A stretch of 64,000 nt of DNA from Candidatus Bathyarchaeia archaeon (lineage in GTDB: Archaea; Thermoproteota; Bathyarchaeia; Hecatellales; Hecatellaceae): positions 1-64,000 of the forward strand of contig JAVZMI010000005.1 in assembly GCA_038883335.1 (NCBI GenBank), written 5' to 3'. Below the pieces are notes generated by a model. It was not told where the DNA came from and did not search any database. It saw only the letters and a list, made by a program, of their open reading frames with translations. Below are positions 2,394 to 28,464 of this stretch, one piece after another (positions within the stretch are counted from its first letter, which is position 1; each line of letters begins with the position of its first letter). The translations under genes and the position numbers were made by a program.

Positions 2394-2439
2394 GCGGTAT
2401 ACGGTCTTCCAATCCGTGAGGGCCCGTCGTCTAGAGGCA

Positions 2440-2480
2440 GAGTGATACACCGACTCCACCTGCCCGGAAAGTCAGGATCA
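2440..2480 (+). other. D-loop tRNA intron, about 41 bases
   Basis: Sequence between A21 (2439) and G22 (2481) of tRNA-Arg(GCG). The boundary can slide by one base because an A stands at both ends. It holds internal complementarity (GGCA and GAGT with ACTC and TGCC) but I could not draw a standard bulge-helix-bulge, so the exact cut sites are uncertain. The same 21/22 site carries an intron in tRNA-Glu(CTC) of this window. Confidence 0.7.
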
Positions 2481-2488
2481 GGACGCTG

Positions 2489-2514
2489 AGCAGCTGGAAA
2501 AAAGCTGCACGGAA
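2489..2514 (+). other. tRNA intron at position 29/30, 26 bases
   Basis: Flanked by a bulge-helix-bulge: outer helix CAGG/CCTG, bulges TGA and AAG, inner helix GCAGCT/AGCTGC. The splicing endonuclease would cut TG^A and AA^G. The central helix is weak (two Watson-Crick pairs). The same site and bulges occur in tRNA-Arg(CCG) at 28332-28359. Confidence 0.8.
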
Positions 2515-2664
2515 GCCTGCGGAGCCGGAAGTCAGGGGTTCAAATCCCCTCGGGCCCGCCATCTCACGTGGTTCGATATATGTAGTCCTCCACCAGCCAT
2601 TGTTGGTGGGCTGGGTGCCCTATAAGGGTCTTAAAATTTGCGGTTGTGTGAAGAGTGATCCAGG

Positions 2665-28162: not shown

Positions 28163-28331
28163 AGATTACACCAGCTACAACCAAAACTTAACCTCTTACG
28201 GGTTGTTAAGGGGCGAGTGCCTTTTTAGGTAGGTGAGCGCTATAATTAATGTTTACTTTACTGAATAAGAGATGTGTCAGTTCCACTAGCCCATGTCGGC
28301 GGGCCCGTGGTCCAGTCTGGATAGGACGTTG

Positions 28332-28359
28332 ACCGGCTTAAATGTGGACCCGGACGGAA
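28332..28359 (+). other. tRNA intron at 29/30, 28 bases
   Basis: Bulge-helix-bulge with outer helix AGG/CCT, bulges TGA and AAG, inner helix CCGG/CCGG; cuts TG^A and AA^G. Same position and bulge bases as the 26-base intron in tRNA-Arg(GCG). Confidence 0.82.
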
Positions 28360-28367
28360 GCCTCCGG

Positions 28368-28385
28368 ACGTAGACCTCGGAAGAG
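28368..28385 (+). other. tRNA intron at 37/38, 18 bases
   Basis: At the canonical archaeal site. Starts and ends next to an A, so the cut could be one base over. Very short. Central helix is weak, so the exact cut needs a folding check. Confidence 0.7.
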
Positions 28386-28464
28386 AGCCGAAGATCAGGG
28401 GTTCAAATCCCCTCGGGCCCGCTAAAAATCTTTATTCAGAGTCTCCAAATGGGATGTTCAAAAT

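Follow-up and report, generated by a model that had tools for sequence, protein, structure and literature searches.

In the archaeal bulge-helix-bulge (BHB) splicing motif, a central helix of 4 bp is flanked by a 3-nt bulge on either side; a relaxed form, HBh', also exists. Noncanonical tRNA introns of Crenarchaeota/Thermoproteales occupy several sites per gene, including 29/30, have strict or relaxed motifs, and are associated with an alpha2beta2 splicing endonuclease (PMC4090602, PMC4033280). D-arm introns and multi-intron tRNA genes have also been described in Candidatus Caldiarchaeum subterraneum (PMC3293823), and in three Asgard genomes more than half of the tRNA genes contain multiple introns (PMC11291895).

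The window analyzed here is a stretch of 64,000 nt (contig JAVZMI010000005.1, assembly GCA_038883335.1) from a bathyarchaeote of the family Hecatellaceae, and carries what sequence comparison identifies as a tRNA-Arg(GCG) gene with two noncanonical introns. Like the introns of Crenarchaeota/Thermoproteales, these are short, several per gene, and include the 29/30 site, but the host belongs to a different class, Bathyarchaeia. Caldiarchaeum subterraneum, likewise an archaeon outside Thermoproteales, also has introns in the D arm and two introns in a single gene, whereas its sites are 24/25 and 45/46, in tRNA-Thr(GGU). An earlier note on this DNA considered such genes rare outside Thermoproteales and a few related archaea; this is not supported and is out of date, as introns in the D arm and at 29/30 and tRNA genes with several introns are reported for Caldiarchaeum (PMC3293823) and for Asgard archaea (PMC11291895), and we observe D-loop or 29/30 introns also in other Bathyarchaeia, Nitrososphaerota, and Methanomethylicota. 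Given the Caldiarchaeum and Asgard surveys and the introns of the relatives, the gene is therefore a further case of a known gene type. Interrupted tRNA genes are numerous in this group, and the present one, with one of its introns at an unusual site, is a good but ordinary representative.

Identification of the tRNA-Arg(GCG) gene

The gene occupies positions 2420–2561 of the forward strand (as do all features below) and comprises three exons, two introns, and an encoded CCA: GGGCCCG TC GTCT AG [37 nt] TCAGGATCA GGAC G CTG [26 nt] GC CTGCGGA GCCGG AAGTC AGGGG TTCAAAT CCCCT CGGGCCC G CCA. As the earlier note had recognized, it does not fold directly: ARAGORN and Rfam at the gathering score list no tRNA in the window, loosened Rfam thresholds yield weak or chance matches only, and the gene is absent from a whole-genome search with a tRNA model, which lists 27 tRNAs. 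An intron-tolerant alignment of the Arg(GCG) consensus to the region, on the other hand, scores 117, whereas the highest score is 44.5 in 40 shuffles of the whole region, and 100.5 (mean 88, s.d. 3.8) in 60 shuffles confined to the part between the 5' acceptor strand and exon 3. Tools that miss such interrupted genes will report the Arg(GCG) tRNA as absent.

Exon 1 (2420–2434) contains the 5' acceptor strand GGGCCCG, which pairs with 2551–2557, followed by U8, C9, the D-stem strand GUCU (10–13), A14, and G15. Exon 2 (2472–2488) contains the D-loop remainder UCAGGAUCA, the D-stem strand GGAC, G26, and CUG at 27–29. Both align to intron-free orthologues, for exon 2 those designated L185–L190 and others. 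Exon 3 (2515–2561) contains GC at 30–31, the anticodon loop CUGCGGA with the anticodon GCG at 2519–2521, the variable region AAGUC, the T arm, the 3' acceptor strand, G73, and the encoded CCA (2559–2561). Scored as a cloverleaf after splicing, the sequence has acceptor, D, anticodon, and T stems of 7, 4, 5, and 5 bp, respectively, with GCG at 34–36. The fold with a single canonical intron and no D-loop insertion, named in the earlier note as the competing structure, did not come out. The mature tRNA, as corrected below, is 79 nt long including CCA, and aligns end to end at 85–91% to many intron-free genes in 201 Bathyarchaeia genomes, one example being L185, GGGCCCGTGGTCTAGTCTGGATTAGGACGCTGGCCTGCGGAGCC; judged by this similarity, the gene is orthologous to the intron-free Arg(GCG) genes. 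Nothing similar to it was found in the phage collection searched.

Position of the D-loop intron

Comparison with orthologues places intron 1 in the D loop at 15/16, as a predicted 37-nt intron (2435–2471). The earlier note had placed it at 21/22 (41 nt, 2440–2480), and so was right that two noncanonical introns interrupt the gene and that one lies in the D loop, but wrong about the exact D-loop join. With either join the exons fold into a perfect cloverleaf, at –32.6 kcal/mol for 21/22 and –32.0 kcal/mol for 15/16. As the two fold equally well, folding cannot choose between them, which is also why reading the sequence alone failed to separate them, and homology decides. The 15/16 join leaves AGUCAGGAUCA as the mature D loop, in keeping with relatives, and has the real G18-G19 in exon 2 (2475–2476), whereas the 21/22 join leaves AGAGGCA, which borrows G18-G19 from the intron. 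The D loops of relatives, of the type AG-YYWGGATYA, are longer than the latter join allows. In the Arg(GCG) orthologue of Candidatus Hecatella orcuttiae JdFR-11 (by taxonomy, also Bathyarchaeia, Hecatellales, Hecatellaceae), GGGCCCGTCGTCTAG[agggactcatcgtcatcccggaaaa]TCAGGACTAGGGCGCCGGCCTGCGGAGCCGG..., where the inner sequence in brackets is the single D-loop intron and the anticodon arm is uninterrupted, this intron ends before UCAGGA and not after it, which again disagrees with 21/22. The Hecatella join TCTAG|TCAGGA produces the D loop AGTCAGGA..., and the same form occurs in other tRNAs of Hecatellaceae. Moreover, the intron-tolerant alignment opens the introns of the window gene at the same joins as the comparison with orthologues.

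Splice-motif pairing agrees with this placement. The 15/16 boundaries form a relaxed motif with three of four central pairs, compared to one of four, and no outer helix, at 21/22. The 15/16 intron conforms to the relaxed (HBh') BHB form, having no exon-side helix and an outer helix of 2 bp, or of 5 bp with one bulged C. The same three-of-four pairing, with position 10 always unpaired, is observed in the window gene, Hecatella, bathyarchaeote bin28, and Nitrososphaerota FK5_bin.27, while the intron bodies of these four genomes are unrelated and the outer helix varies (GGCAG/CTGCC in the window, GGGA/TCCC in Hecatella). Joins at 13/14, 14/15, and 15/16 all yield an identical mature RNA, and we choose 15/16 since it gives the motif observed in the other three genomes. 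Taken together with the 29/30 intron, the 21/22 placement is highly improbable in our estimate. The gene illustrates cleanly that a parse selected solely for its cloverleaf may set a D-loop intron at the wrong place if there are G-G pairs on either side of the join.

A resemblance of CCGGAAAGTCAGGATC, which spans the boundary of intron 1 and exon 2, to CCGGAAGTCAGGGGTTC in exon 3 was considered as a possible duplication and is treated as chance; exon 3 of Hecatella, CCGGAGGTCGGGGGTTC, shares it poorly.

The 29/30 intron

The second intron, 26 nt at 29/30 (2489–2514), was placed here by the earlier note as well, and both the alignment and the recurrence of this site in relatives bear it out. 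Its putative motif is made up of the helix CAGG/CCTG (4 bp), the bulges TGA and AAG, and, within the intron, the hairpin GCAGCU/AGCUGC (6 bp); in the central helix only the inner two of four pairs form, and the fold of lowest energy has a 3x3 internal loop instead (–18.3 kcal/mol, compared to –10.9 kcal/mol for the motif).

The same join recurs in eight other genes. The site is used in Arg(CCG) of both the host genome and Hecatella, with three of four central pairs in each, and in Arg(GCG) of other Bathyarchaeia, Methanomethylicota, and Nitrososphaerota, where all four pairs form. The host tRNA-Arg(CCG) gene (28301–28421, RF00005 match of 42.8 bits) has introns at 29/30 (28 nt) and approximately 37/38. 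The end of intron 2, ACGGAA, is common to this gene and is better paired there, so it may have been copied from Arg(CCG), although this is a guess.

The weak central helix of intron 2 could be taken to mean that the gene is a decaying, unspliced pseudogene that has gathered insertions. Against this, the gene retains all of its stems, its anticodon loop, and its encoded CCA undamaged, and the 15/16 intron site is common to a different genus. No other Arg(GCG) gene was found in the host genome (98.9% complete, 18 contigs), and the codons CGC and CGU are in use, 156 times across 39 long open reading frames of the window. A second, intact Arg(GCG) gene could be missing from this assembly. On balance, we consider decay into a pseudogene scarcely credible.

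Predicted splicing

We consider it very probable that the only Arg(GCG) gene found yields a two-intron pre-tRNA that is cut and ligated to a mature tRNA. The exon structure comes from comparison with relatives, and transcription, cleavage, and ligation are predicted steps. Transcription would give a pre-tRNA interrupted at 15/16 (by 37 nt) and at 29/30 (by 26 nt), and both introns would be cut at relaxed bulge-helix-bulge motifs by a heterotetrameric endonuclease with a catalytic and a structural subunit; RtcB would then ligate the three exons, giving a tRNA of 76 nt plus CCA, and the mature tRNA-Arg(GCG) would read CGC and CGU.

The host genome encodes two splicing-endonuclease paralogues, by sequence one catalytic and one non-catalytic, and the RtcB ligase. 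The catalytic paralogue matches 3p1z_B of Aeropyrum pernix (2e-44) and retains the histidine of GPGIDHAPF and the region of the lysine-bearing loop, which has been linked to a broad substrate range of the endonuclease (PMC6379350), while the second paralogue has no catalytic histidine. We infer that the subunits assemble as alpha2beta2. The endonuclease pair and RtcB are the set expected for introns of this kind.

Distribution of introns in Arg(GCG) genes

Introns are present in 13 of the 115 readable Arg(GCG) matches listed by a pattern search, which demands an uninterrupted 3' half, so that the 115 genes are a sample and not a frequency. Seven of the 13 have a D-loop intron and seven, an intron at or near 29/30; one gene, from Nitrososphaerota isolate XS84Bin3 (L053), has both. 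It thus resembles the window gene in having two noncanonical introns, in the D loop and at 29/30, but its D-loop intron lies further 3', at approximately 20 to 22 depending on the end slide. The Hecatella gene (MTLY02000002.1; L152) is the same gene in the same family, with the same 15/16 join and splice motif, but has a 25-nt intron of another sequence and lacks the 29/30 intron. Among 257 Bathyarchaeia genomes, the 15/16-intron pattern is found in three, representing three genera and two families. The text of PMC4090602 does not mention this site among those it lists (20/21, 22/23, 25/26, 29/30, ...), but the list closes with "etc."

As unrelated intron bodies share the splice architecture and the exact join in Hecatellaceae, a second bathyarchaeal family (that of bin28), and a separate Nitrososphaerota lineage, 15/16 of tRNA-Arg(GCG) might be a recurrent target of intron gain, suggesting targeted intron movement outside Thermoproteales; we propose this tentatively and hold it to be rather doubtful.

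In bathyarchaeote bin28 (CP070759.1), an intron-free Arg(GCG) gene (L058) is found beside one with a 36-nt 15/16 intron (L108), possibly a recent intron gain. Arg(GCG) genes L194, L195, L196, and L199 of other Bathyarchaeia have the D-loop intron slightly further on, at approximately 17a/18.

Other tRNA genes of the host genome

Out of 29 tRNA genes recovered in the host genome in a census based on the T-arm pattern, 16 exceed the length of an uninterrupted tRNA and are taken as interrupted. This adds one more lineage, a bathyarchaeal family, with heavily interrupted tRNA genes.

Three long genes, L212 (G000:C3:86024), L213 (G000:C3:102412), and L229 (G000:C9:874), of 146, 166, and 183 nt, respectively, are probably each interrupted by two or three introns, some of them in the D arm. 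In tRNA-Thr(GGU) (L205, G000:C1, approximately 101678–101820), the first 8 bases are split off by approximately 32 nt, that is, by an intron at approximately 8/9, between the acceptor and D stems, which is an unusual site; a further intron is located near 37/38, and the gene of family members is uninterrupted.
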